64,000 nucleotides of DNA from Oscillospiraceae bacterium. GTDB lineage: Bacteria; Bacillota; Clostridia; Oscillospirales; Oscillospiraceae. Positions within the stretch are counted from its first letter, which is position 1. The number at the start of each line of letters is the position of its first letter. The notes beneath the pieces are model-generated. The model saw only the letters and a list, made by a program, of their open reading frames with translations. It was not told the origin of the DNA and searched no databases. The stretch is from positions 19,860-83,859 of the forward strand of contig JAHAWY010000006.1 of NCBI GenBank assembly GCA_018385135.1. Reading direction: 5' to 3'. The translations under genes and the position numbers were made by a program. Positions 37,805 through 52,648 of the stretch are shown in pieces.

Positions 37805-40800
37805 TCATCTTTTTTCAAATCTGTCAAGGTTTGTCAAAACCTCGGCAAGCCGCGATATTTCGATTGGCTTTGAGATATGGTCATTCATGCCGCTTGAGAG
37901 CGCTTTTTTTACGTCCTCTGCAAAGGCATCCGCGCTCATCGCCACAATGGGAATGGTTTTGGCTCTCGGATGGCTGCATTCGCGTATCGCCATCGACGCC
38001 TCATAGCCGTTCATAACAGGCATCTGAATATCCATAAGCACAATGTCAAACTCGTTTTCCTCGCTGTCTCTGAAGGTTTCAAAGCCCTCAAGACCGTTAT
38101 GCGCAAACGTTACTCTTGCCCCGCCCCTTTCCAGAATGCGAGTCGCTACCAGTGCGTTTATCGGGTGATCCTCGACCAGCAAAATGTTAAGCCCGGAGAA
38201 ATCCGTTGAAAGCCGCTTTTGCTCGGGCATACTCTCGTGCTGCTCTATCCCCTTTTCAGCCACGCGGAAGGGAATTTCAACAACGAAGCTTGAGCCTACC
38301 TCCGTGTCACTGTGTACATCTATCGTTCCGCCCATAAGCTCCAGCGTGCTTTTAACGATGGAAAGCCCCAGACCCGTTCCCTCGATGCCTGTGGTGCTGG
38401 CTGTGCCCGTGCGGAAAAACGGCTCGAAAATGTTCTCAAGCTGATCGGGCTGAATGCCGATGCCCGTGTCCGCGACCGTGTATATGTAGCGCTGCAGCTC
38501 CGTGCCGTGTTTGGACTCCGACTCTTGGCAGCTGACCTTTATGCAGCCGCCCTTCGGCGTGAATTTAACAGCGTTGGAAATCAGATTTTCCAGAATTCTG
38601 GTCAGACGCAAAGCGTCGCCTATGCACCTGTCGTGCGTTACATCGATTTCCAGCTCCAGCTTTTGATCCTTTTCCTTTATAAGCGGCGCGGACATTTGAG
38701 CAAGCTTATTGAGTATCCCACTCTGGCTGAAGCGCTCCTCGGCAGTAACAACCTTGCCGCTTTCAATTCGGCTCATCTCAAGGATGTTATTAACGAGAGA
38801 AAGAAGGTGTCCCGATGCGTCGCGTATTGTAGAAAGGCTCTCTCTAACCTGCTCAACATTGTCCGGCTCACCTATTGCAAGCTCGGTCATTCCTGCAATT
38901 ACGTTGAGCGGCGTTCTTATATCGTGGCTCATCGACGAAAGAAACGCCGTTTTTGCCGAGTTTGCTTGGCGCGCAGAGTCAAGTGCCGCTTGCAGCGCGC
39001 TTTTTTGGCGTTCCTGCGCCGCAACAACATCTGTAACGTCGATGCTCGTGAGAAGCACAAGTCCTCCGGTCATTCTGTAGTCGGCGTAGCGGCTCTTTTT
39101 AAGGCGAACAGCGCCGTTTTCATCGTAGCAGCGGAAGGTAAACTCGTAAAATTCCTTCTCCCTGAGTCTTTCTCGGATATTGTCTATGGAGTTGCACTTT
39201 AAAAACAGCTCCTTGTCCTCCGGGTAAACATTAGACTCCGCCGACAGGCGAATCGTGCTGTCGAAATCCACAAAGCCATTGTAGCTTAGATGACCAAAGC
39301 ACTCGTCCCGCTTTTTAAACAGCGTTATTTGTTCCGAGTCAAGGTCGGTGAGGGCAATAATGTCGAAGTCGTAGGCAGATACCGCCTCTATGACCTCCTG
39401 CTCCATCTTCTGGCGCGTAATGTCATTGCTGTAAAAGAAAGCGATTATATTTCCGCTGCCGGGGTTCTCGACAAGGCTCATATTAAGCTCCATCCACTTT
39501 GCCGTACCGTCCTCCGACGCATATCTAACAGTACAGTTAACGGTGTTTTTTCCGGCGTTAAAGCCGGCGAGGAGCCTTTGCCGGTTGAACCTCATCGCGT
39601 ATTCCGTGGAGTATTCCGTCCCGATCATATGGTTGCTTGAATATGCTATGAAATAGTCATAGGACATTCCCTCATATTCGTCCGTGTCTCGCACTGAGGT
39701 TCTAGCGCTCTCCACCCGGTTTTGGGTAAGGTTGAATACAAAGAAATCGTTGGCATGGCTCGCAAGCGCGTCCTGCATCGCAACGATTCCCTTATACTTT
39801 CTTTCAGCCTCAACCTGCGCTGTAATGTCTATCGCCGTGCCGATGGCGCGGCTGGGCTGACCGTTAGAATCGAACAGCGTATGGTAGCGAACAAGCTGCC
39901 AGTGCCACTTTCCGTCCTTTAAAACCATAGGAAGCTTTGCCTCGGCGTACTCCGAGCCTTTTTCCGCTTCATTTAGCAGCCAATTGTATTGCGCCTGATA
40001 GTCAGCCGGAATAAAACCGGTATCGTAAAGAGGCTGAGGATAGTTTTCTATTACCTCTTCCAAGCCGCATTGCTCCTGCGTGGTCTTGCCCAAAACGGCG
40101 CTGTGCTCGTTGATGTCATATTCCCAATAGAGGATATTTGTATCCTCTATAACGGTGTCCAGCCTGCGCAGGCTTAGCTGACGGTCAAGCGCTGCCAGTT
40201 GCACGTCGTTTACATCGCGCATCGCGCCGATAACGCGCACACGCTTGCCTGTCTCATCGCAGATATTATTGACGGAAATCGTCGTCCAGAGATAGCTGCC
40301 GTCGCACATTCGCGCTCTGAGTGTTGTCTCAACAAAGGCGCGCCCTGCCTTGGTGTCTCTGCCAAACTGTTGAAGCAAGGGAAGATCATCCGGGTGGACC
40401 GCGGCGACTGAAATGCGGTTTTCTATGATATCGTTCACCGGCTGTCTGCTTAACACAAAGCGATTATAATCACCGGAGGTGTATGTAGTGCCGTTCTCAA
40501 GATCCCAGTCAAAAACTACAGTGCCTGTGTTTTCAACCATTATGCGGTAACGGTCCTGCTCTTTGTGCAGCACTTCGCTTGCCGCCCTGCGCTCGGTAAT
40601 GTCCTTTGCGTAGCGAATCATGGCGGGTCTGTCCATCCAGTTTATAAAGCGCTCCGTAATAAGCACTACCTTGTTGCCAAACTTAGGCAGCGTCCTTTCA
40701 TCCTCAAGCAGAGGTCTGCCGCTGCAAATACCGCAGCTTTCGCAGGGAGTATCCCTCCCGAAAAGCACCTCGTAGCATTTCTTTCCCTGAACATCCTTTT

Positions 40801-41719
40801 CCGAAAAGCGCAAAAGCTCGCGCATACTGTTGTTGGAATAGTACATTTCAAAGGTTTCCGCATCAACAACATATATTGCGTTGGTGTACTCATCCAGAAT
40901 GCTCCTAAAAAGATTAAACTCCTTGGAAGTGCCCATAAGGACTCCATGCCCCAACAGCTCCCCACTGCTGTTTTGCTCTGTCTGCATGGCGAGAGTAACC
41001 CAAACAAGTGTTCCGTCCTTATGAACGCTTCGGAAGGTCATATCCGCGTTTTTCCCTGAAATAAGGCTTTCTATCAGCGCCGAGCTGTAGCGCTCAAAAT
41101 CATCCGCGCAAACATTGCCCATAGGAGAGCGTTCCAGCAAAGCCTTATATTCATTGCGGCTGTATCCCAAAAGCTCCGGAACGCCGTCGGTGAAGTAAGT
41201 AATTCTCGCCTCGTTGGGCGCTGTCAGCTTATATGTGATAAGACCTCCGGGAACGGCATTGGCAACATTTTTTAGCTCCAGCTCGGACTTTTTAATCTTG
41301 CGATTCGCTTGAGCCTGCTTTTTCCAGTCAAAGAATACCGAACCGTGTATGCCACAGATTTTGTGTATACCGTTCTCCCTGCGGCAGATAAACTCACAGC
41401 GCTGCTCGAAAATAAGCGAATTACCGCGCGCTCTGCGCAGCTTTTGGCTCATCAAAATCTGTGTTATATCCGGCGCCAGACTGCGCTCGTCAAGCAGCTC
41501 ATTTGTTAGCGAAAGCGGCTCTGTGATGTCAACAACGTTGCTGAAAAACACTTCCTTGAATCCGTCCTTGTTTATTATGAGCTTGTCGCTGTCAGCCGCT
41601 CCCAGCCAGCGCACATCATCGCTAAGACACTCAAGCGCAGCATCAAAATCCCTGTCGCAAAAGTATTTAACCGAAAAGTATTCTACCGTTTCTCTGGCTG
41701 TCATCGCTGAATTTTGCAT
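37805..41719 (-). CDS. hybrid sensor histidine kinase/response regulator with NTF2-like N-terminus and multiple PAS domains
   Basis: HisKA SHDIRTPLNVIAGMTELA; HATPase NLISNAVKFTPKGG, DTGIGIQPDQ, GTGLGLSIVKST; REC LLVEDHPINALVATRILE...IVLMDIQMPVMNGYEA. Confidence 0.92.
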   Translation of the reverse strand: MQNSAMTARETVEYFSVKYFCDRDFDAALECLSDDVRWLGAADSDKLIINKDGFKEVFFSNVVDITEPLSLTNELLDERSLAPDITQILMSQKLRRARGNSLIFEQRCEFICRRENGIHKICGIHGSVFFDWKKQAQANRKIKKSELELKNVANAVPGGLITYKLTAPNEARITYFTDGVPELLGYSRNEYKALLERSPMGNVCADDFERYSSALIESLISGKNADMTFRSVHKDGTLVWVTLAMQTEQNSSGELLGHGVLMGTSKEFNLFRSILDEYTNAIYVVDAETFEMYYSNNSMRELLRFSEKDVQGKKCYEVLFGRDTPCESCGICSGRPLLEDERTLPKFGNKVVLITERFINWMDRPAMIRYAKDITERRAASEVLHKEQDRYRIMVENTGTVVFDWDLENGTTYTSGDYNRFVLSRQPVNDIIENRISVAAVHPDDLPLLQQFGRDTKAGRAFVETTLRARMCDGSYLWTTISVNNICDETGKRVRVIGAMRDVNDVQLAALDRQLSLRRLDTVIEDTNILYWEYDINEHSAVLGKTTQEQCGLEEVIENYPQPLYDTGFIPADYQAQYNWLLNEAEKGSEYAEAKLPMVLKDGKWHWQLVRYHTLFDSNGQPSRAIGTAIDITAQVEAERKYKGIVAMQDALASHANDFFVFNLTQNRVESARTSVRDTDEYEGMSYDYFIAYSSNHMIGTEYSTEYAMRFNRQRLLAGFNAGKNTVNCTVRYASEDGTAKWMELNMSLVENPGSGNIIAFFYSNDITRQKMEQEVIEAVSAYDFDIIALTDLDSEQITLFKKRDECFGHLSYNGFVDFDSTIRLSAESNVYPEDKELFLKCNSIDNIRERLREKEFYEFTFRCYDENGAVRLKKSRYADYRMTGGLVLLTSIDVTDVVAAQERQKSALQAALDSARQANSAKTAFLSSMSHDIRTPLNVIAGMTELAIGEPDNVEQVRESLSTIRDASGHLLSLVNNILEMSRIESGKVVTAEERFSQSGILNKLAQMSAPLIKEKDQKLELEIDVTHDRCIGDALRLTRILENLISNAVKFTPKGGCIKVSCQESESKHGTELQRYIYTVADTGIGIQPDQLENIFEPFFRTGTASTTGIEGTGLGLSIVKSTLELMGGTIDVHSDTEVGSSFVVEIPFRVAEKGIEQHESMPEQKRLSTDFSGLNILLVEDHPINALVATRILERGGARVTFAHNGLEGFETFRDSEENEFDIVLMDIQMPVMNGYEASMAIRECSHPRAKTIPIVAMSADAFAEDVKKALSSGMNDHISKPIEISRLAEVLTNLDRFEKR

Positions 41720-43075: not shown

Positions 43076-43789
43076 TTATTCGCAGAGCGCTTTTTTAAGA
43101 GCATCAAAGCTCGGCTCTGCAAGCTCCAGAAAATGCTCGCGCTCGGCGATATTGCCAAGCTGGTGCGCGTCGGAGCTTGTTACGATTTTGCGCTCGCGTC
43201 GGTATGCGGCATTTTCCGAGGATGAGAAAAAGCTATCCGGTCGGTAGACCTCCAGCGTTTTGAAATTCGGTCTATCAGGCAGCATACCGAAATTTGAAAG
43301 GACACTGTTTGTCCCCCTGTCGATATGGGCGGGATAGCAAAATCCACCGTAACGCGCGGCAAAGCTCGGAAGCTCGTCATAGGAAAGGCTCGTCGCGTTG
43401 GAAAGCAATATCGGCAGTCTGTCTAAAACCCGCTCGTTTTCATCCATCACAAGCTGCTCTCCGAAAAACTTCGGATTGTTTTCAACAGGCGGCAGCAGCT
43501 CATACAGCTCCCTACCCGCGCGCTCGGCGCTCTCTGCATCGGGAAAAAGGCAGACAACGTGGATCTCCTCCGCCGTTGTAACCTCTATTCCCGCGATCAC
43601 CTCAAGGGGCAGCTCCTCTGCCGCGCGCATAACGGCAGCGGCATTGAGCGCCGTGTTGTGGTCTGTTACGGCAATGAGATCAAGCCCCTTTATGTACGCC
43701 ATGTTGGCGATATTCGGAGGTGTCATAAGCTCGTCCCCGCAAGGTGAAAGGCAGGTATGTATATGCAGGTCGTAGGCAAATTGCGGCAT
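43076..43789 (-). CDS. PHP-domain phosphoesterase
   Basis: YDLHIHTCLSPCGDELMTPPNIANMAYIKGLDLIAVTDHNTALN; HIDRG; SSDAHQLGNI. Confidence 0.9.
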   Translation of the reverse strand: MPQFAYDLHIHTCLSPCGDELMTPPNIANMAYIKGLDLIAVTDHNTALNAAAVMRAAEELPLEVIAGIEVTTAEEIHVVCLFPDAESAERAGRELYELLPPVENNPKFFGEQLVMDENERVLDRLPILLSNATSLSYDELPSFAARYGGFCYPAHIDRGTNSVLSNFGMLPDRPNFKTLEVYRPDSFFSSSENAAYRRERKIVTSSDAHQLGNIAEREHFLELAEPSFDALKKALCE

Positions 43790-43817
43790 AGCCCGCCCTC
43801 CTCTCGGATTTTAGTCT

Positions 43818-44153
43818 TTACGCCAGCCCCAGTGCTCTCGCCGCGGCAAGCGACGCCTCAAAAATCGGCATATCGGTGCGCAGAACGGTGATATCGCCTT
43901 TTTCAGCGCCCGCTCTTGTCTCATCATCCATGCTCACGCCCTCGGCGAGAACAACGCAGGCGCATTCGGTCAAGGATGCCACCGCCATGGCGTTCACATT
44001 GCCCATGATAGTGACCCACAGGCATCCGACCGGGGCACGGCTCATAACTATGGATAGCAGATCGCCGCAGTAGATGCCGCCGGAAATCTCATTGTCTCCG
44101 CAGCCAAAGGCAAGCTCCCAGCCCAGCTTATCGCAAAGCTCCTTGGTTTTCAT
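43818..44153 (-). CDS. DRTGG-domain protein
   Basis: MKTKELCDKLGWELAFGCGDNEISGGIYCGDLLSIVMSRAPVGCLWVTIMGNVNAMAVASLTECACVVLAEG; start overlaps the upstream stop. Confidence 0.75.
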   Translation of the reverse strand: MKTKELCDKLGWELAFGCGDNEISGGIYCGDLLSIVMSRAPVGCLWVTIMGNVNAMAVASLTECACVVLAEGVSMDDETRAGAEKGDITVLRTDMPIFEASLAAARALGLA

Positions 44154-44154
44154 A

Positions 44155-45468
44155 TCAGCCCTCCCCCTTTTCGCGGCTTTCAAGCTTCAGCGACAGCATA
44201 CTTGAGCGCACAGCGTCCACCTTATCCTTGAGAAGATAAATGCACAAATCCTCGGTGGCATAGCCGCGAACTATATCCTCAGCCAGAGCGCGGCAGGAGG
44301 GTGAGCCGCAGGAGCCGCAGTCAAGCCCATAGAGCTTAGATTCGATTTTTTCGAGCTTGCGCATCATCCTCATCGCCTCAAACGGGTCGCCGGAGAGACT
44401 GAGGGTTTTAAGAGGCTTTATGTCCTTTGTCCAAAGAAGCTCCTTGGGAATGCTGCCGCTTTTTATGTTGTTGCAGGAGACGGGCAGATATGCCCAGAGG
44501 TGCTTGAGCCTTGTTACAACGACATATGGGTTTTCAACATTCAGAACACCGCCCACGCAGCCCGCGGGACAGGCATTAAGCTCAACGAAATCCTGGTCGG
44601 CGAGCTTATTGTCCTCCATCTCCTCAAGAACGTTGATCACGTTTTCAATTCCGTCCGCGGCAAGATAGCTGGTGGCGAGCGTTGCTCCCGCCTCACCGCC
44701 GCTGTTGCCCCATGAAAGCCCCGTGCGTCCCGTTTGAGCCGTATCGGCATCGCCCTTCCAATTTTTGGCGAGCTTATTCATAGCCGAAAGCAGAACAGGG
44801 TAAACTTCCGCTGACGAAACCGCGAGGTCAACATCGCTTTTGTCGATGCCGAAGGGATTTTTGATTGCCGTGACCTTCGCCGGGCAGGGCGTTATGAACA
44901 CTATCCCTATTTCCTCCGGTTTTAAGCCACTGTTCCTGACCGCCTGTTCGCGCGCAAGCTTTGCCGCGACCTCCATCGGCGAGGAGATCGGCAAAACATT
45001 CTCCAGCAGGTTAGGAAAGCGGATTTTGATAAGCCGCAGAACAGCCGGGCACGCCGAGGAAATAACGGGCTTTTTAAGCTTACCGCGCTCAAGCATCATG
45101 CGTGTTGCGGAGGAAACAAGCTCCGCTGCTGCCGCGACCTCAAAAACCTCGTCAAAGCCCAAAGCCAGCAGCCCCGCTCTAATAAGCTCCAAATCCTCTT
45201 GGTTTTTATACTGCCCAAAAAGGGACGGCGGCGGCAGCGCCACCTTATATTTAAAGCCTTTTATCGCCGCAAGCGGGTCTGTCACCGCGTGCTTTGCGTG
45301 GTGTGGGCATACTCTTATACATTCTCCGCAGTCGATGCAGCGCTCCTTTGTTATCTGCGCCTTGCCGTTCCTCACGCGAATTGCCTCTGTTGGGCAGCGC
45401 TTGACACAGGTTATGCAGCCGCGACAGGATTCTGTATCCAATGTCACGGAGTGAAAGTACTCTGCCAT
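44155..45468 (-). CDS. [FeFe]-hydrogenase-like protein, putative sensory (HydS-type, group C/D-like)
   Basis: 2x[4Fe-4S] ferredoxin (CRGCITCVKRCPTEA, CIDCGECIRVCPHHAKH), divergent H-cluster motifs SSACPAVLR / TPCPAKVTA / ELNACPAGCVGGV, and C-terminal CGSCGSPSCRALAEDIVRG Fe-S domain. Confidence 0.8.
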   Translation of the reverse strand: MAEYFHSVTLDTESCRGCITCVKRCPTEAIRVRNGKAQITKERCIDCGECIRVCPHHAKHAVTDPLAAIKGFKYKVALPPPSLFGQYKNQEDLELIRAGLLALGFDEVFEVAAAAELVSSATRMMLERGKLKKPVISSACPAVLRLIKIRFPNLLENVLPISSPMEVAAKLAREQAVRNSGLKPEEIGIVFITPCPAKVTAIKNPFGIDKSDVDLAVSSAEVYPVLLSAMNKLAKNWKGDADTAQTGRTGLSWGNSGGEAGATLATSYLAADGIENVINVLEEMEDNKLADQDFVELNACPAGCVGGVLNVENPYVVVTRLKHLWAYLPVSCNNIKSGSIPKELLWTKDIKPLKTLSLSGDPFEAMRMMRKLEKIESKLYGLDCGSCGSPSCRALAEDIVRGYATEDLCIYLLKDKVDAVRSSMLSLKLESREKGEG

Positions 45469-45493
45469 GTGACGCCTCCGTATGTAAGTATTT

Positions 45494-45928
45494 CTATTTG
45501 CCGGAAAGAAAAACTGTCAGCCTGACGGTAGTGCCCTTGCCGACCTCGCTGTCAATAAGCAGCTCGTCGGCGTATTTTTTCATATTGGGCAGACCCATAC
45601 CCGCGCCGAAGCCCAGCCCTCGCACCTGCTCGGAGGCTGTTGACCAGCCCTCCTGCATGGCAAGGTCTATGTCCGGTATTCCCGGACCGTGGTCTGTCAA
45701 AACAGCGGCGATCTGCTCGGCATCTATGAATACGTCTATTTCGCCGCCTCCGCCGTGTATAACCATATTTATCTCTCCCTCATAAAGGGAAATCGCCATT
45801 TTCCTTACTATCCGCGGGTCAAAGCCCAATTGCTTCAAGGTTTTTTTAACCGCGCTGGACGCCGTTCCCGCCTGTGTGAAATCGTCTCCGGAAACGACAA
45901 AGTGATAGTGGAGAGTGTTTTCGCTCAT
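45494..45928 (-). CDS. RsbW-like (anti-sigma factor type) GHKL ATPase
   Basis: AISLYEGEINMVIHGGGGEIDVFIDAEQIAAVLTDHGPGIPDIDLAMQEGWSTA...GFGAGMGLPNMKKYADELLIDSEVGKGTTVRL; no DHp or receiver. Confidence 0.85.
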   Translation of the reverse strand: MSENTLHYHFVVSGDDFTQAGTASSAVKKTLKQLGFDPRIVRKMAISLYEGEINMVIHGGGGEIDVFIDAEQIAAVLTDHGPGIPDIDLAMQEGWSTASEQVRGLGFGAGMGLPNMKKYADELLIDSEVGKGTTVRLTVFLSGK

Positions 45929-46278
45929 TTTACTGACATACCTCCGTTCAGTCCGGCTTTATAAAGCAGTCCGCAGGCAGTGAACATACGGTGACTTGAG
46001 CACATAACTGCAATGCCGCTTTCCTTGGCACATTCAATAATGGTTTCGTCCGGTCTTTTGCCGCGAACAAACACGACACAGACCATATCCATCATAGCCG
46101 CCGTTCTTATAGCCTGCTGGTTTAACAAACCCGTGATCAGCACCGCCTGGTTTTTGACATAGGCAAGCACATCACTCATCATGTCGCTGCCGCAGGCGGC
46201 ATGAACTTCGGTTTCGAGCAGATCCTCTCCACAAATCAACTCGGCGTCGAGTGTCGATAATACTTCTCTAAGCAGCAT
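45925..46278 (-). CDS. DRTGG-domain protein
   Basis: 117 aa, MLLREVLSTLDAELICGEDLLETEVHAACGSDMMSDVLAYVKNQAVLITGLLNQQAIRTAAMMDMVCVVFVRGKRPDE. Confidence 0.78.
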   Translation of the reverse strand: MLLREVLSTLDAELICGEDLLETEVHAACGSDMMSDVLAYVKNQAVLITGLLNQQAIRTAAMMDMVCVVFVRGKRPDETIIECAKESGIAVMCSSHRMFTACGLLYKAGLNGGMSVK

Positions 46279-46507
46279 ATTTTAACCTCCGTTTTTATCA
46301 AAATGTGACAAAAAGTTTGTTAAACAATAAATATGATTGTTAATCGCTAAATTTATTGCCTTATCGCTTTAAACCGTGTAAAATTGAAAACACATCGACA
46401 GAATTCTTCGTGAATCTTAATAAACTGCTGCAACACCCTAATGCCGCGCACCATTTGCACCAAACGCGTAGCTGCCATGCAAAAAGATTATACATGAACA
46501 AAAATCA

Positions 46508-46567
46508 TTTCACAATATAATCTCTGTTTTCACAATGTAATCTAAGATTTCACAATCTGTCTTATAT
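46508..46567. repeat. three tandem 20-bp direct repeats (iteron-like)
   Basis: TTTCACAATATAATCTCTGT / TTTCACAATGTAATCTAAGA / TTTCACAATCTGTCTTATAT; 9-nt core TTTCACAAT identical and exactly 20 bp apart. Confidence 0.85.
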
Positions 46568-46724
46568 TTTGCAAATCAGGTTCAAAAGACGGATGCCGAG
46601 CAAATTTTTCACTCCGCGCCGCTTTTTTCTTCCTATTAGTGATTATACCACAGCATATTTTACAACACAATCACAGTATTTTATATAGTACGCTCATTAA
46701 AAAGTTATAGCAAATCTTCAAAGA

Positions 46725-46742
46725 ATGTGATAAAATTAACAA
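46725..46742 (+). promoter_or_regulatory. Rex-like operator candidate
   Basis: ATGTGATAAAATTAACAA compared with the Clostridia-type Rex consensus TTGTTAANNNNTTAACAA: 11 of 14 defined positions, one half perfect. Confidence 0.35.
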
Positions 46743-46829
46743 GATATCATAAATAGCGCAATTCATCTTGCGATATTATAGACGCTGCTTGCAGCATACA
46801 TCAGACTTTTTTTATGGAGGGAAGCATAA

Positions 46830-47321
46830 ATGTCAACCAAAGCGTGTTGTTCCGCGTGTGTCGGCACTGAGGAGCAGGACAAGAAGCTCCATGAGGCGAT
46901 TTCCGCCTTGCAGGGCGAGCATTCTCTTGTTCAGGTCCTTCAGGCCGCACAGGAAATCTACGGCTACCTGCCCGAGCGGGTAATCGACACCATCGCAAAG
47001 GAGCTCGGCGTGTCCTCTGAAACTGTTTATGAAGTAGCAACCTTCTACTCGCAGTTCAAGTTCAACCCCAAGGGCAGATACGCTATTTCCGTATGTCTCG
47101 GTACAGCCTGCTATGTTAAGGGCGCAGGTGATATCTACGAAAAGATCAAAGAAAAGCTCCAGATAGACGACGGACAAACCACTCCCGACGGCAAGTTCTC
47201 CATTGATGCCTGCCGCTGCGTCGGTGCCTGCGGTCTTGCCCCGGTTATGAGCATAAACGACAATGTTTACGGCAACCTCACCGTCGATATGATCGACGGC
47301 ATCCTCGATAAATGTCAATAA
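46830..47321 (+). CDS. hydC: NuoE-like [2Fe-2S] subunit of NAD-dependent [FeFe]-hydrogenase (HydC)
   Basis: YEVATFYSQFKFNPKGRYAISVCLGTACYVKGAGDIYEKI...CRCVGACGLAPVMSIND; RBS GGAGGG. Confidence 0.9.
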   Translation: MSTKACCSACVGTEEQDKKLHEAISALQGEHSLVQVLQAAQEIYGYLPERVIDTIAKELGVSSETVYEVATFYSQFKFNPKGRYAISVCLGTACYVKGAGDIYEKIKEKLQIDDGQTTPDGKFSIDACRCVGACGLAPVMSINDNVYGNLTVDMIDGILDKCQ

Positions 47322-47346: not shown

Positions 47347-47898
47347 ATGATGCAGGAGCTTTCGATGAACATTCTTGATGTTGCAGAAAACTCCGTTCGC
47401 GCGGGTGCAAGCCTTGTCGAAATAACGGTTGACCGCCAGCCGGTCAACGATTTGATGACCATCACCATCTCCGACAACGGCTGCGGAATGTCTCCCGAGC
47501 AGCTCAAAAAAGTCTCCGACCCCTTTTATACGACCCGAACCACCCGCAGCGTGGGACTGGGCATTCCCTTTTTCCGCATGGCGGCTGAGCTTACGGGGGG
47601 CAAGCTTGAAATCTCAAGCACTCAAGGCGTCGGAACGCTTATCAAAGCAAGTTTCGTTCTCTCCAGCATCGACCTTATGCCGCTCGGCAACATCAACGAG
47701 ACCATTTTCGTGCTTATCCACGGCAATCCGGATATGGACTTCGTTTTTACCCACCGTCTCGGCGGCAGCGAGCTTGTGCTGGACACCCGGAGCTTTCGCA
47801 GGATCCTCGGTGATATTCCGCTTAACGACCCCAAAGTCTCAAGCTTTATCCGCGAGTTTCTTGACGAAAACACCCGAGAGCTTCTTCAAGCTCAATAA
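47347..47898 (+). CDS. GHKL ATPase (histidine-kinase-like ATPase domain only)
   Basis: N box ILDVAENSVRAGAS, G1 ISDNGCGMSPEQL, G2 TTRSVGLGIPFFRMAAELTGG; no phosphoacceptor domain. Confidence 0.88.
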   Translation: MMQELSMNILDVAENSVRAGASLVEITVDRQPVNDLMTITISDNGCGMSPEQLKKVSDPFYTTRTTRSVGLGIPFFRMAAELTGGKLEISSTQGVGTLIKASFVLSSIDLMPLGNINETIFVLIHGNPDMDFVFTHRLGGSELVLDTRSFRRILGDIPLNDPKVSSFIREFLDENTRELLQAQ

Positions 47899-47927: not shown

Positions 47928-48299
47928 ATGAAGACCTTAGCTGAACTTCAGGCACTTCGTGATGATATGAAAGCCCAGGTCGGTGTACGCCGCGAGGGAC
48001 AATACCGTATGCGCGTCGTCGTCGGCATGGCGACCTGCGGCATCGCCGCGGGTGCGCGCCCCGTTCTCGCCGCCTGCACCGAGGAGCTTGAAAAGCGCAA
48101 GCTCACCGATGTTATCGTTGCACAGACAGGCTGCATAGGCATCTGTCAGTATGAGCCGGTCGTCGAGGTGTTCGATGCCGACGGCAGCAAGACCACCTAT
48201 GTCCATGTGACCCCCGATAAGGTTCCCAAGATTTTCGCACAGCATATAGTTAACGGCTCTCCGGTGGTTGAGTACACCATCGGTGCCAACGCCAAATAA
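47928..48299 (+). CDS. thioredoxin-like [2Fe-2S] ferredoxin
   Basis: MATCGIAAGARPVL...AQTGCIGICQYEPVVEV. Confidence 0.88.
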   Translation: MKTLAELQALRDDMKAQVGVRREGQYRMRVVVGMATCGIAAGARPVLAACTEELEKRKLTDVIVAQTGCIGICQYEPVVEVFDADGSKTTYVHVTPDKVPKIFAQHIVNGSPVVEYTIGANAK

Positions 48300-48313: not shown

Positions 48314-50101
48314 ATGGTTCGTTCCCATGTCCTCGTTTGCGGCGGTACCGGCTGTCACTCCTCCGGAAGCGATAAGATATTCGAGCATTTTGAAGAAGAA
48401 ATCAAAAAGTCCGGTCTTGAGGGCGAGGTCAAGGTCATAAAGACCGGCTGCTTCGGTCTTTGTGCGCTCGGTCCCGTCGTCGTTGTGTATCCCGAGGGTG
48501 CTTTCTATTCCAAGGTAACTCCGGACGATGTTAAGGAAATCGTATCCGAGCATCTGCTCAAGGGCAGACTCGTAAGCCGTCTGCTCTACACCGAGACTGT
48601 CAAGGAGGACACCGTCACCAGCCTTGACGACACCGATTTCTACCGCAAGCAAATGCGCGTTGCTCTTCGCAATTGCGGCGTTATCGACCCTGAAAACATC
48701 AAGGAATACATAGCCTATGACGGCTACATGGCTCTTGCCAAGTGCCTTACCGAAATGACCCCCGAGCAGGTCGTCAAGACCATTCTCGACAGTGGTCTGC
48801 GCGGTCGAGGCGGCGGCGGCTTCCCCACAGGCAGAAAGTGGGGCTTCGCGGCGGCTCAGCCCGCAGGCGAAAAATACGTCTGCTGCAACGCCGACGAGGG
48901 CGACCCGGGCGCATTCATGGACAGAAGCGTTCTTGAGGGCGATCCCCACTCCGTATTGGAGGCAATGGCAATCGCGGGCTACGCCATCGGCGCATCCCAC
49001 GGCTACATATACGTTCGCGCAGAATACCCCATCGCCGTTAAGCGTCTTAGCATTGCTCTCCAGCAGGCAAGAGAAATCGGCATCCTGGGCGAAAACATTC
49101 TCGGCACGGGCTTCAGCTTCGATGTTGACATCCGTCTTGGCGCGGGCGCTTTCGTCTGCGGCGAGGAGACGGCTCTGCTCAACTCCATCGAGGGCAAGCG
49201 CGGCGACCCGCGTCCCCGTCCTCCCTTCCCCGCTGTCAAGGGTCTTTTCGGCAAGCCCTCCATCATCAACAACGTTGAAACCCTTGCCAACGTTCCCCAG
49301 ATCATCCTCAAGGGCGCTGAGTGGTTCTCCTCCATCGGTACGGAGAAGTCCCCCGGCACCAAGGTCTTTGCTCTGGGCGGCAAGATAAAGCACACCGGTC
49401 TTGTTGAAGTTCCGATGGGAACAACGCTCCGCGAGATCATCGAAGAGATCGGCGGCGGCATCCCCAACGGCAAAAAGTTCAAGGCTGTTCAGACCGGCGG
49501 TCCCTCCGGCGGCTGCATTCCGGCAGAACACCTTGACATTCCCGTTGACTACGAAAACCTCACCGCTATCGGCTCGATCATGGGCTCCGGCGGTATGATC
49601 GTCATGGACGAGGATAACTGCATGGTGGATATCGCCAAGTTCTTCCTCAAGTTCACCGTTGACGAAAGCTGCGGAAAATGCACCCCCTGCCGCATCGGTA
49701 TCCGCCGTATGCTCGAAATTCTGGAGAAGATCACCTCCGGCAACGGCACGATGGAGGACATCGACACCCTTGAGGAGCTTTGCTACTTCATCAAGGAAAA
49801 CGCCCTCTGCGGTCTGGGTCAAACCGCTCCCAACCCCGTTCTCTCTACTCTGCGTTACTTCCGCAACGAGTATGAGGCACACGTTATAGACAAAAAGTGC
49901 CCGGCAGGCATCTGCAAGGATCTTCTCACCTACGTTATCAACCCCGACAAGTGCAAAGGCTGCACGCTCTGCGCTAAGAACTGTCCCGTCGGCGCTATTT
50001 CCGGCGAGCTGAAGGGAGCGCACACCATCGACACCGACAAGTGCATCAAGTGCGGCGTCTGCGTTGCAGGCTGCAAGTTCAAGGCAATCGAAAAAAGATA
50101 A
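48314..50101 (+). CDS. hydB: NuoF-like flavoprotein subunit of NAD-dependent [FeFe]-hydrogenase (HydB)
   Basis: N-terminal [2Fe-2S] domain; GLRGRGGGGFPTGRKW, CNADEGDPGAFMDRS, ESCGKCTPCRIG; C-terminal CKGCTLCAKNCPVGAI, CIKCGVCVAGC. Confidence 0.95.
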   Translation: MVRSHVLVCGGTGCHSSGSDKIFEHFEEEIKKSGLEGEVKVIKTGCFGLCALGPVVVVYPEGAFYSKVTPDDVKEIVSEHLLKGRLVSRLLYTETVKEDTVTSLDDTDFYRKQMRVALRNCGVIDPENIKEYIAYDGYMALAKCLTEMTPEQVVKTILDSGLRGRGGGGFPTGRKWGFAAAQPAGEKYVCCNADEGDPGAFMDRSVLEGDPHSVLEAMAIAGYAIGASHGYIYVRAEYPIAVKRLSIALQQAREIGILGENILGTGFSFDVDIRLGAGAFVCGEETALLNSIEGKRGDPRPRPPFPAVKGLFGKPSIINNVETLANVPQIILKGAEWFSSIGTEKSPGTKVFALGGKIKHTGLVEVPMGTTLREIIEEIGGGIPNGKKFKAVQTGGPSGGCIPAEHLDIPVDYENLTAIGSIMGSGGMIVMDEDNCMVDIAKFFLKFTVDESCGKCTPCRIGIRRMLEILEKITSGNGTMEDIDTLEELCYFIKENALCGLGQTAPNPVLSTLRYFRNEYEAHVIDKKCPAGICKDLLTYVINPDKCKGCTLCAKNCPVGAISGELKGAHTIDTDKCIKCGVCVAGCKFKAIEKR

Positions 50102-50119: not shown

Positions 50120-51865
50120 ATGAACATGATTAATCTTAAAATCAACGGTACTCCCGTTACCGTGCCGGAGGGAACTACCATCCTCGACGCGGCTCGTCAG
50201 GCAAGCATCGATATTCCGACTCTCTGCTACCTCAGGGACATAAATGAAATCGGCGCATGCCGTATGTGCGTTGTTGAGATAAAGGGCTCTCCCAAGCTCA
50301 ACGCTGCCTGCGTCTATCCCGTTACCGAGGGTATGGAGGTCATCACGAACTCCAAGCGCATCTTTGAGGCTCGCAAAATGAACCTCGAACTGCTGCTGAG
50401 CAACCATAAGCGCGAGTGTCTTTCCTGCGTTCGCTCCGGCTCGTGCGAGCTTCAGAAGCTCTGCCACGACTACGGCGTTGAGGACGAGGGACGCTTTGAC
50501 GGCATGACCACCCCCTCCACGATAGACGATTCCGCTATCCACATGATCCGCGATAATTCAAAGTGCATCCTCTGCCGTCGCTGCACCTCAGTATGCGACA
50601 AGCTTCAGGACGCCGCCGTTATCGGCACAAACGGACGCGGCTTTGTTACCCATATCGGCAGTGCTTTCGATGCTCCCCTTAATAATGTCGCCTGCGTTTC
50701 CTGCGGTCAGTGCATCACCGCCTGTCCCACCGGCGCTCTGCGCGAGCGCGACGACACCGACAAGGTTTGGGCCGCTCTTGCCGACCCCGAAAAGCGCGTT
50801 ATCGTTCAGACCGCTCCCGCCACCCGTGCAGCTCTCGGCGAAGCTTTCGGTATGCCGATTGGCACCAATGTTGAGGGCAAGATGGTCGCGGCGCTGCACC
50901 GCATGGGCTTTGACGATGTCTTTGATACCGACTTCTCTGCTGACCTCACCATCGTTGAGGAAGCAAACGAGCTTGTCGAACGCATCAAAAACGGCGGTAA
51001 GCTCCCCCTCATCACCTCCTGCTCCCCCGGTTGGATCAACTACTGCGAGCAGTATTACCCCGATATGCTCGAAAACCTCTCCTCCTGCAAGTCTCCCCAG
51101 CAGATGTTCGGCGCTATCGCCAAGAGCTGGTATGCCGAAAAGCTCGGCATCGCTCCCGAGAACATCTACATGGTCAGCATCATGCCCTGCACGGCGAAGA
51201 AGTTTGAGATCAAGCGCGACCATCAGTCCGCTAACGGCGTTCCCGATGTTGACGTTGCTCTGACCACCCGCGAGCTTTCCCGCATGATCAAGCGTGCCGG
51301 TATCGACTTTAACTCTCTGCCCGACGAGAAATTTGACGATCCTCTCGGCGTATCCACCGGCGCTGCTGTTATATTCGGCGCTACCGGCGGCGTTATGGAG
51401 GCAGCTTTGCGTACAGCAGCCGAGTGGATCACAGGCGATCCCGGCGCTCCCGTTGAATTTGTCGATGTCCGCGGCACGGATGGCGTTAAGGAAGCCACCT
51501 ACAAGGTCGGCGACCTCACGCTCAATGTTGCCATCGCCTCCGGTCTTAAAAACGCCAAGCAGGTTCTTGAAGCAGTCAAGAAGGGCGAGAAGGATTACCA
51601 ATTCATCGAAATCATGGCTTGCCCCGGCGGCTGCGTAAACGGCGGCGGTCAGCCTATCCAGCCCGGCAGCGTCCGCAACAACGTGGATATCCGCGCTTTG
51701 CGCGCCAAGGCTCTTTATACGCAGGATGCTAATATGCCTCTGCGCAAATCCCACGATAACCCGGTTATCAAGGAGATTTATGACAGCTACCTTGAAAAGC
51801 CCGGCAGCCACAGAGCGCATGAGCTGCTCCATACCGAGTATGCCGCGCGCCCCATCTACAAATAA
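50120..51865 (+). CDS. hydA: [FeFe]-hydrogenase catalytic subunit, NADH-dependent group A type (HydA)
   Basis: [2Fe-2S] GACRMCVVEIKG; HKRECLSCVRSGSCELQKLC; 2x[4Fe-4S]; H-cluster motifs TSCSPGW, MPCTAKKFE, EIMACPGGCVNGGGQP; C-terminal small-subunit-like region. Confidence 0.95.
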   Translation: MNMINLKINGTPVTVPEGTTILDAARQASIDIPTLCYLRDINEIGACRMCVVEIKGSPKLNAACVYPVTEGMEVITNSKRIFEARKMNLELLLSNHKRECLSCVRSGSCELQKLCHDYGVEDEGRFDGMTTPSTIDDSAIHMIRDNSKCILCRRCTSVCDKLQDAAVIGTNGRGFVTHIGSAFDAPLNNVACVSCGQCITACPTGALRERDDTDKVWAALADPEKRVIVQTAPATRAALGEAFGMPIGTNVEGKMVAALHRMGFDDVFDTDFSADLTIVEEANELVERIKNGGKLPLITSCSPGWINYCEQYYPDMLENLSSCKSPQQMFGAIAKSWYAEKLGIAPENIYMVSIMPCTAKKFEIKRDHQSANGVPDVDVALTTRELSRMIKRAGIDFNSLPDEKFDDPLGVSTGAAVIFGATGGVMEAALRTAAEWITGDPGAPVEFVDVRGTDGVKEATYKVGDLTLNVAIASGLKNAKQVLEAVKKGEKDYQFIEIMACPGGCVNGGGQPIQPGSVRNNVDIRALRAKALYTQDANMPLRKSHDNPVIKEIYDSYLEKPGSHRAHELLHTEYAARPIYK

Positions 51866-51964: not shown

Positions 51965-52648
51965 CTAAAACAAAGCCTTCAGCCCATCAAGGTCGAGCAG
52001 CTCAAAGTGCGCCCCCGAAAAGCTTATCAGTCCCTGTGCGCGCATACGCGACAGCTCCCGCGACAATGCGCTCCTGTCGCAGCCCAGCATCTCTGCCTGC
52101 CGCTCACGCGAATGTGGGCAGCGAAAGCTCCTCTCTCCCGACGACTGGGTGAGCAGATATTTTGCAATTTTCCCCCGCAGTGTCGGACAAAGCAGCAGCT
52201 CCATGCGCGCCATTAGAGTAAAATACTTGCTTGAGATTTCGCCGAACAGATTGCGCAAAACACGCTCCTGCGTCTGCGCGCAGCTCTCGCTTCTCATCAG
52301 CAGCGCTGAAAAGGGTATTCGCAGCACCTCGCCGTCCGCCGTCATGCGCACGGCAACGGGACTTTTCTCCTCCGAGCCGGAGAGCATATCGCCAAACAGG
52401 TCGCCGGGAGCAAATTCGTTTATCAGGACTCTGCGCCCCTCCGCACCCAAGCTCTCGCCCACGGCCGCGCCGGAGAGTACGATATGCAGGCTGCTGCGCC
52501 GCTCGCCCTGCTCAATGAGCGTTGTACCCTCCGAAGCTGCCATCGGATATATGCGCAGCTCCTCCAAAAAGCGTTCGATTTCTGTCCTTTTCATACCGCG
52601 AAAAAGCGGCGAGCGCATTGCCGCTTCAAGCTGTGTTTTATTGAGCAT
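51965..52648 (-). CDS. Crp/Fnr-family transcriptional regulator
   Basis: cNMP-binding-like fold; HTH SRERQAEMLGCDRSALSRELSRMRAQGLISF. Confidence 0.88.
   Translation of the reverse strand: MLNKTQLEAAMRSPLFRGMKRTEIERFLEELRIYPMAASEGTTLIEQGERRSSLHIVLSGAAVGESLGAEGRRVLINEFAPGDLFGDMLSGSEEKSPVAVRMTADGEVLRIPFSALLMRSESCAQTQERVLRNLFGEISSKYFTLMARMELLLCPTLRGKIAKYLLTQSSGERSFRCPHSRERQAEMLGCDRSALSRELSRMRAQGLISFSGAHFELLDLDGLKALF

Follow-up and report, generated by a model that had tools for sequence, protein, structure and literature searches.

The group D [FeFe]-hydrogenase HydS of Thermoanaerobacter mathranii (TamHydS) changes its secondary structure in response to H2, and its interaction partners are still to be identified (2026 study, PMC13104023). 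In Acetobacterium woodii, the hydCBA operon also encodes an ATPase, HydE, which is not part of the enzyme and may serve in assembly or signalling (PMC3315566). Proteins resembling both are encoded in the 64,000-nucleotide stretch of Oscillospiraceae bacterium DNA analysed here (contig JAHAWY010000006.1; hereafter the window). A minus-strand set of five open reading frames at 43076-46278 (hereafter the cassette) encodes, in gene order, DRTGG1, an RsbW-like ATPase, a HydS-like hydrogenase, DRTGG2 and a PHP-family protein. A bifurcating hydrogenase operon, divergent from it, encodes a second ATPase, HATP2. The five genes and HATP2 may form one cytoplasmic signalling module that adjusts the co-encoded ferredoxin/NAD enzyme, a reading given an even chance. 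The original prediction, made from the window alone, was an H2-sensing operon; the H2-sensing idea is plausible.

The arrangement is conserved far beyond chance. The order DRTGG1-RsbW-HydS-DRTGG2-PHP is complete and on one strand in 147 of 167 surveyed loci, comprising 107 loci of relatives and 60 drawn across the phylum, from about 50 families; a few genomes are counted twice, several gaps are contig ends and many of the genomes are metagenome bins. The possibility that the five genes have no conserved linkage, which would have undone the original prediction, is thereby excluded. In a fixed set of 399 genomes of the phylum HydS was found in 162, the RsbW subfamily in 169 and both in 159; HATP2 was found in 169 genomes, including 155 of the 162 with HydS. 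No more than four HydS candidates were scored per genome, which makes absences of HydS less reliable than presences. Co-occurrence gives Fisher p ~1e-94 and ~1e-83, values that ignore phylogeny and are read only as 'strong'. The cassette is kept in the same order across about 40% of the sampled phylum.

The features of the locus are as follows.

45925..46278, minus strand: DRTGG1, cassette gene 1, 117 aa; Pfam PF07085, 39.4 bits (cut-off 25.2).
45494..45928, minus strand: RsbW/SpoIIAB-like GHKL ATPase, 144 aa; HATPase_c_2 (Pfam).
44155..45468, minus strand: HydS, group D / M2e [FeFe]-hydrogenase-like, 437 aa; Fe_hyd_lg_C, FeS and ferredoxin domains (Pfam).
43818..44153, minus strand: DRTGG2, 111 aa from ATG (121 aa from TTG 44183); fold matched by AlphaFold and Foldseek.
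43076..43789, minus strand: PHP-family metallo-phosphoesterase, 237 aa; PF02811, 37.1 bits (cut-off 26.4).
46279..46829, no strand: divergent intergenic region, 551 bp; sigma-70-like promoter candidates and a TTTCACAATRTAATCT direct repeat.
46830..47321, plus strand: HydC, NuoE-type [2Fe-2S] subunit of the divergent bifurcating hydrogenase operon; PF01257, 169.5 bits.
47347..47898, plus strand: HATP2, second GHKL ATPase, without DHp domain; HATPase_c (Pfam).
47928..48299, plus strand: thioredoxin-like [2Fe-2S] protein (Trx), HydD-like; PF01257, 26.2 bits.
48314..50101, plus strand: HydB, NuoF-like flavoprotein, presumed target; Complex1_51K and others (Pfam).
50120..51865, plus strand: HydA, group A6 NADH-dependent [FeFe]-hydrogenase, presumed target; NF040763, 909 bits (cut-off 765).

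The tight packing originally described is borne out to the base: in gene order, a 4-bp overlap and a 25-bp gap precede the HydS/DRTGG2 junction, and a 28-bp gap follows it. The overlap claimed at that junction exists if DRTGG2 starts at TTG 44183; it disappears with the more likely start, ATG 44153, which sits just past the HydS stop.

The association with a bifurcating hydrogenase operon, divergent in the window, extends to the relatives. The hyd genes lie colinear downstream, as PHP-HydC-HATP2-Trx-HydB-HydA, in 65 loci, often with only 44-160 bp between PHP and HydC. In most non-divergent loci the cassette is upstream of hydC and colinear with it; the divergent layout is common to the genus of the window and some others. 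Because the cassette is colinear with hydC and close upstream of it, sensor and target are probably co-transcribed in most lineages, which favours post-translational control. The genes flanking the cassette on either side (SPOR, folC, valS; Maf, RadC, Mre or wall genes) were rejected as candidates for a conserved upstream partner, being housekeeping neighbours. Near the cassette in the window, at 37805-41719 on the minus strand, a 1304-aa hybrid histidine kinase carrying multiple PAS domains and a receiver domain was read from the sequence; it is not conserved as a cassette neighbour among the surveyed loci.

By all sequence criteria HydS is a group D / M2e (TamHydS-type) [FeFe]-hydrogenase, in agreement with its first description as divergent and putatively sensory. 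It comprises an N-terminal domain with two [4Fe-4S] clusters, an H-cluster domain and a C-terminal Cx2Cx4Cx16C cluster. The H-cluster cysteines C140, C195, C300 and C304, the eight ferredoxin cysteines and the C-terminal cysteines C384, C387, C392 and C409 are invariant in 169 of 169 homologues. The proton-transfer cysteine (C299 of CpI) is replaced by Ala139, and alanine is found at this position in 142 of the 169. The proton path of TamHydS, E252, E289, D265 and S249, has its counterparts in E259, E296, D272 and S256, each numbered 7 higher (path residues from PMC10407848). No PAS domain was matched in HydS by Pfam, and the protein stops soon after the FeS motif; it thus lacks the C-terminal PAS domain that marks group C sensory hydrogenases. 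Group C and group D matches are distributed independently among the relatives, for which reason an obligate pairing of a group D kinase with a group C PP2C was rejected.

Gene fusion is the usual signature of physical partnership. Single open frames join DRTGG1 to RsbW (surveyed loci L172, L175, L183), RsbW to HydS (L187, L210), HydS to DRTGG2 (L164), PHP to HATP2 (L156, L207), HATP2 to Trx (L167) and two CBS domains to RsbW, as CBS-CBS-RsbW (L165, L190, L195, L203). Open-frame lengths suggest further DRTGG1-RsbW fusions in two families, about ten genomes in all. Because nearly every adjacent pair is fused somewhere, the cassette products probably form one complex, with a chain DRTGG1-RsbW-HydS-DRTGG2 and a pair PHP-HATP2. 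These natural fusions support a physical link between HydS and the RsbW-like ATPase, in line with the signal path originally proposed. In one genome (L164 12646-14991, L234 4646-6991) a 782-aa open frame upstream of a HydS cassette combines hydrogenase-like sequence with a HATPase match at its C-terminus, and is perhaps a hydrogenase-histidine kinase fusion.

RsbW resembles structures of the anti-sigma F factor SpoIIAB (E=5e-9). E50, the N-box asparagine N54, D79, G81, G83 and the ATP-lid glycines G106, G108, G110 and G112 are conserved in 181 of 181 sequences; E50 is presumably the catalytic-base glutamate, as in SpoIIAB. The SpoIIAB equivalog model TIGR01925 scores 52.9 bits, far short of its cut-off of 135. 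Neither RsbW nor HATP2 classifies as a two-component histidine kinase: both are bare HATPase domains, and the cassette carries no receiver or DHp domain. The likeness to SpoIIAB, the retained catalytic Glu and Asn, and the divergent hydCBA of the window would suit classical partner switching, in which RsbW as an anti-sigma kinase frees a sigma factor for hydCBA transcription upon a HydS signal. Partners for such a route were sought, as originally proposed, and the surveyed loci show no STAS, PP2C or sigma gene as a recurrent cassette member or linked to the cassette RsbW. The genome of the window encodes two STAS proteins, each beside its own kinase, one in spoIIAA-spoIIAB-sigF (L120) and one in a STAS/HATPase/PP2C cluster (L121). 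The sigma/anti-sigma route foreseen for RsbW was rejected on these grounds. Moreover, the intergenic region carries sigma-70-like promoter candidates, and the relatives are mostly colinear, so that the target may lack a promoter of its own. Partner switching is accordingly considered improbable.

Within the intergenic region the TTTCACAATRTAATCT direct repeat occupies 46508-46556 with a period of 20 bp, in two complete copies plus part of another. It was rejected as a conserved operator, as relatives of the same genus are without the repeats. A Rex operator was also rejected; matches occur only at three mismatches, the level of chance. TGTGA-like half sites are present in the region. An apparent Crp/Fnr-family regulator gene lies at 51965-52648 on the minus strand, convergent with hydA.

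HATP2 belongs to the signalling set as its sixth member, although it is encoded in the divergent hyd operon, because it comes after PHP even in loci that have no HydABC (L163, L165, L171, L178, L203). The Trx-like protein follows HATP2 even ahead of Rnf (L165, L203). The five genes stand as a conserved unit, but the original outline of it is incomplete: it leaves out HATP2, encoded at 47347-47898 in the presumed target operon. The predicted structure of HATP2 and its Foldseek matches give a GHKL fold. The N-box asparagine N15 and the G-box residues D43, G45, G47, G70 and G72 are conserved in 118 of 118 sequences and D11 in 117 of 118. PHP has a complete set of metal ligands, with D43, H44, E69, H77, H155, D207 and H209 in 160 of 160 sequences and H9/H11 in 159 of 160. 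The conserved residues of RsbW, PHP and HATP2 mark all three as predicted working enzymes.

DRTGG1 retains D32 in 177, S35 in 179 and C102 in 167 of 179 sequences. DRTGG2 scores 16.2 bits, under the Pfam cut-off for DRTGG; its AlphaFold model (pLDDT 97.5) has as top Foldseek matches the DRTGG domains 3l2b, 3l31 and 2ioj, followed by HPr kinase N domains (1ko7). The fold match to 3l2b and 2ioj (TMq 0.75-0.77) settles that the modelled protein has the DRTGG fold. A D-[LM]-[LM]-S motif is common to DRTGG1 and DRTGG2, with Asp and Ser near-invariant. The invariant Ser was considered as a phosphosite; it may be a generic DRTGG residue. The other DRTGG match of the genome is HPr kinase, judged by reading its sequence.

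These folds also bear on a nucleotide or second-messenger circuit, in which the DRTGG proteins, with the fused CBS domains, would bind adenine nucleotides or a dinucleotide cleaved by PHP, the ATPases would read it and HydS would add a redox input. In its favour, the DRTGG fold is matched by the HPr kinase N domain and by the CBS/DRTGG regulatory region of a pyrophosphatase, several lineages have RsbW with CBS domains fused to it, and the relatives of PHP include RNase AM and nucleoside bisphosphate phosphatases. The cassette, however, encodes no nucleotide-making enzyme, and in known structures nucleotides are bound by CBS rather than DRTGG. Such a circuit is judged unlikely.

Both the input and the target of the cassette vary. 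Cassettes of the form DRTGG1-[CBS-]RsbW-DRTGG2-PHP-HATP2, in which HydS is missing and RsbW adjoins DRTGG2, occur in L215, L218, L228, L229 and L238, a reduced HydS-less form occurs in L235 and L239, and one that also lacks RsbW in L227; 13 labels lack HydS in all, of which L230 reflects only a contig end. In the weakly resolved DRTGG1+RsbW tree, HydS-less rows are scattered among HydS-bearing rows. Rooting gain against loss of HydS was abandoned, the tree having too many open forks; there were at least several changes. Because HydS-less cassettes exist, several of them with CBS-RsbW, HydS appears as an exchangeable input, and the core resembles a redox/energy switch of general use. An Rnf operon takes the place of HydABC behind the cassette or a part of it in five loci, identified by RnfC/RnfD in Pfam (L165, L184), by RnfC in Pfam (L203) and by layout (L216, L217). 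Of the predicted control of the divergent HydCBA, the association with HydABC is supported; given the HydS-less cassettes and the Rnf neighbours, a role confined to H2 sensing for HydABC is too narrow. Second copies reduced to HydS-DRTGG2 (L159 8522-10196, L214 2305-3990) directly precede Trx-HydC-HydB-HydA of a different HydB type. In L216 (8648-16054) and L217 (8616-15915), DRTGG1-CBS-RsbW-Trx directly precedes the apparent Rnf operon. These stretches lack HydS, DRTGG2, PHP and HATP2; the remaining cassette is elsewhere in the same genomes (L215, L218).

The closeness of the cassette to an enzyme complex is also what a module for assembling or maturing HydABC or Rnf would show, with HydS as scaffold or quality-control subunit and the ATPases as chaperones. 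The assembly role suggested for the A. woodii HydE counterpart (PMC3315566) and the inclusion of Hsp90 chaperones in the GHKL fold agree with it. HydABC and Rnf, however, have few parts in common, the cassettes of L215, L228 and L229 adjoin neither, and a scaffold would not need a complete, invariant H-cluster site with a proton path. An assembly role is thus regarded as quite unlikely.

In the signalling module that we favour, HydS would act as a slow group D [FeFe]-hydrogenase, the input for H2 and/or reduced ferredoxin, physically joined to its two flanking partners, RsbW and DRTGG2. Its redox state would gate the ATPase/kinase activity of RsbW, which would act on or through DRTGG1 and DRTGG2, with DRTGG1 as direct partner. 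PHP and HATP2 would form a reset/output arm in which PHP reverses the action of RsbW, and HATP2 and Trx would link to the enzyme. The output would be post-translational tuning of HydABC here, or of Rnf in some relatives, and not control by a sigma factor; a post-translational output is suggested by the apparent co-transcription of sensor and target and by the occurrence of either HydABC or Rnf as the presumed target. A more general form is put forward tentatively, as possible but on the doubtful side: a bacterial signalling switch of a kind not described before, reversible, acting on ferredoxin/NAD enzymes and made of two GHKL ATPases, two DRTGG proteins and PHP, with plug-in inputs, HydS for H2/ferredoxin or CBS for nucleotides, DRTGG taking the part of STAS and PHP that of PP2C.

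Composition, linkage, co-inheritance, fusions, conserved active sites, and interchangeable inputs and targets are supported at the level of sequence; the H2/ferredoxin signal, the kinase chemistry, the DRTGG substrate or relay, the PHP reset and the HydABC/Rnf target are steps that we infer. Several points weigh against the signalling module. An underpowered analysis of inter-protein mean-field coupling, at an effective depth of about 75-130 sequences, yielded no interface and was no better for adjacent pairs than for control pairs. In the DRTGG proteins, the conserved Ser/Thr may be a general feature of the domain. HydS-less cassettes, together with L227, which is without RsbW, indicate that the core can work otherwise. 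The C-terminal cluster of TamHydS is not reduced by H2 (PMC13104023), and TamHydS itself turns over H2 (PMC8163306, PMC10407848). The latter property would also fit HydS as an ordinary low-activity metabolic hydrogenase whose neighbours merely hitchhike; the invariant order, the co-inheritance, the fusions with signalling domains and an activity of TamHydS about 200-fold lower than that of CrHydA1 (PMC6984386) make this very improbable.

No description of the cassette was found in the open full-text literature; earlier mention of parts in subscription papers, such as a 2010 survey of clostridial hydrogenases, is possible. Hydrogenase-linked signalling is already known as a kind; the core switch itself stands a real chance of being new. 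The cassette supplies candidate partners for group D HydS, a stated open question (PMC13104023), and the natural fusions are ready-made constructs for testing them. It would offer a first system-level role for stand-alone DRTGG proteins and for the HydE-type ATPase, so far an orphan, that bifurcating hydrogenase operons encode. If true, the module would account for the setting of H2 production and ferredoxin balance in many fermentative bacteria of gut and rumen, with a bearing on methane and biofuel research.

Among known systems, TamHydS shares with HydS the domain layout, the H-cluster ligands, the Ala at the C299 position, the Cx2Cx4Cx16C cluster and the group D proton-path residues, and its gene is also flanked by a histidine-kinase-like ATPase (PMC8163306). 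The published description of its locus differs in mentioning only the ATPase and an AraC regulator, and the papers found describe no DRTGG, PHP or HATP2 partners, fusions or HydS-less versions. No AraC-type gene was noticed as a recurrent neighbour in the surveyed loci, where annotation of neighbours was not exhaustive.

The group C HydS systems (Thermoanaerobacterium saccharolyticum hfsABCD, R. albus HydS; L119) likewise place a putative sensor beside a protein-phosphorylation component and a catalytic hydrogenase, but possess a PAS domain and a PP2C phosphatase and lack DRTGG, RsbW and PHP. On contig C43 of the genome of the window (L119 8539-4187), a group C-like HydS, its C-terminus extended and PAS-like, is followed by a SpoIIE/PP2C phosphatase and a second catalytic [FeFe]-hydrogenase (group B-like). 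This operon resembles Thermoanaerobacterium hfsBCD and is the second putative sensor operon of the genome.

The partner-switching kinases SpoIIAB/RsbW have in common with the cassette RsbW the GHKL fold, the N-, G1- and G2-box residues and the catalytic Glu; they differ in that the cassette is without STAS, PP2C or sigma partner and in the ATP-lid region GLGFGAGMGLPNM, which is specific to the cassette RsbW family. Family II pyrophosphatases (CBS-DRTGG region) and HPr kinase (N domain) share the DRTGG fold, and CBS stands beside DRTGG; the cassette DRTGG proteins stand alone, without a pyrophosphatase or HprK catalytic domain. HydE of A. woodii, equated with HATP2 from the description in that paper alone, is a HATP2-like ATPase encoded in a bifurcating hydrogenase operon and outside the purified enzyme (PMC3315566); HATP2 differs in that linkage and the PHP-HATP2 fusion connect it with the HydS cassette.

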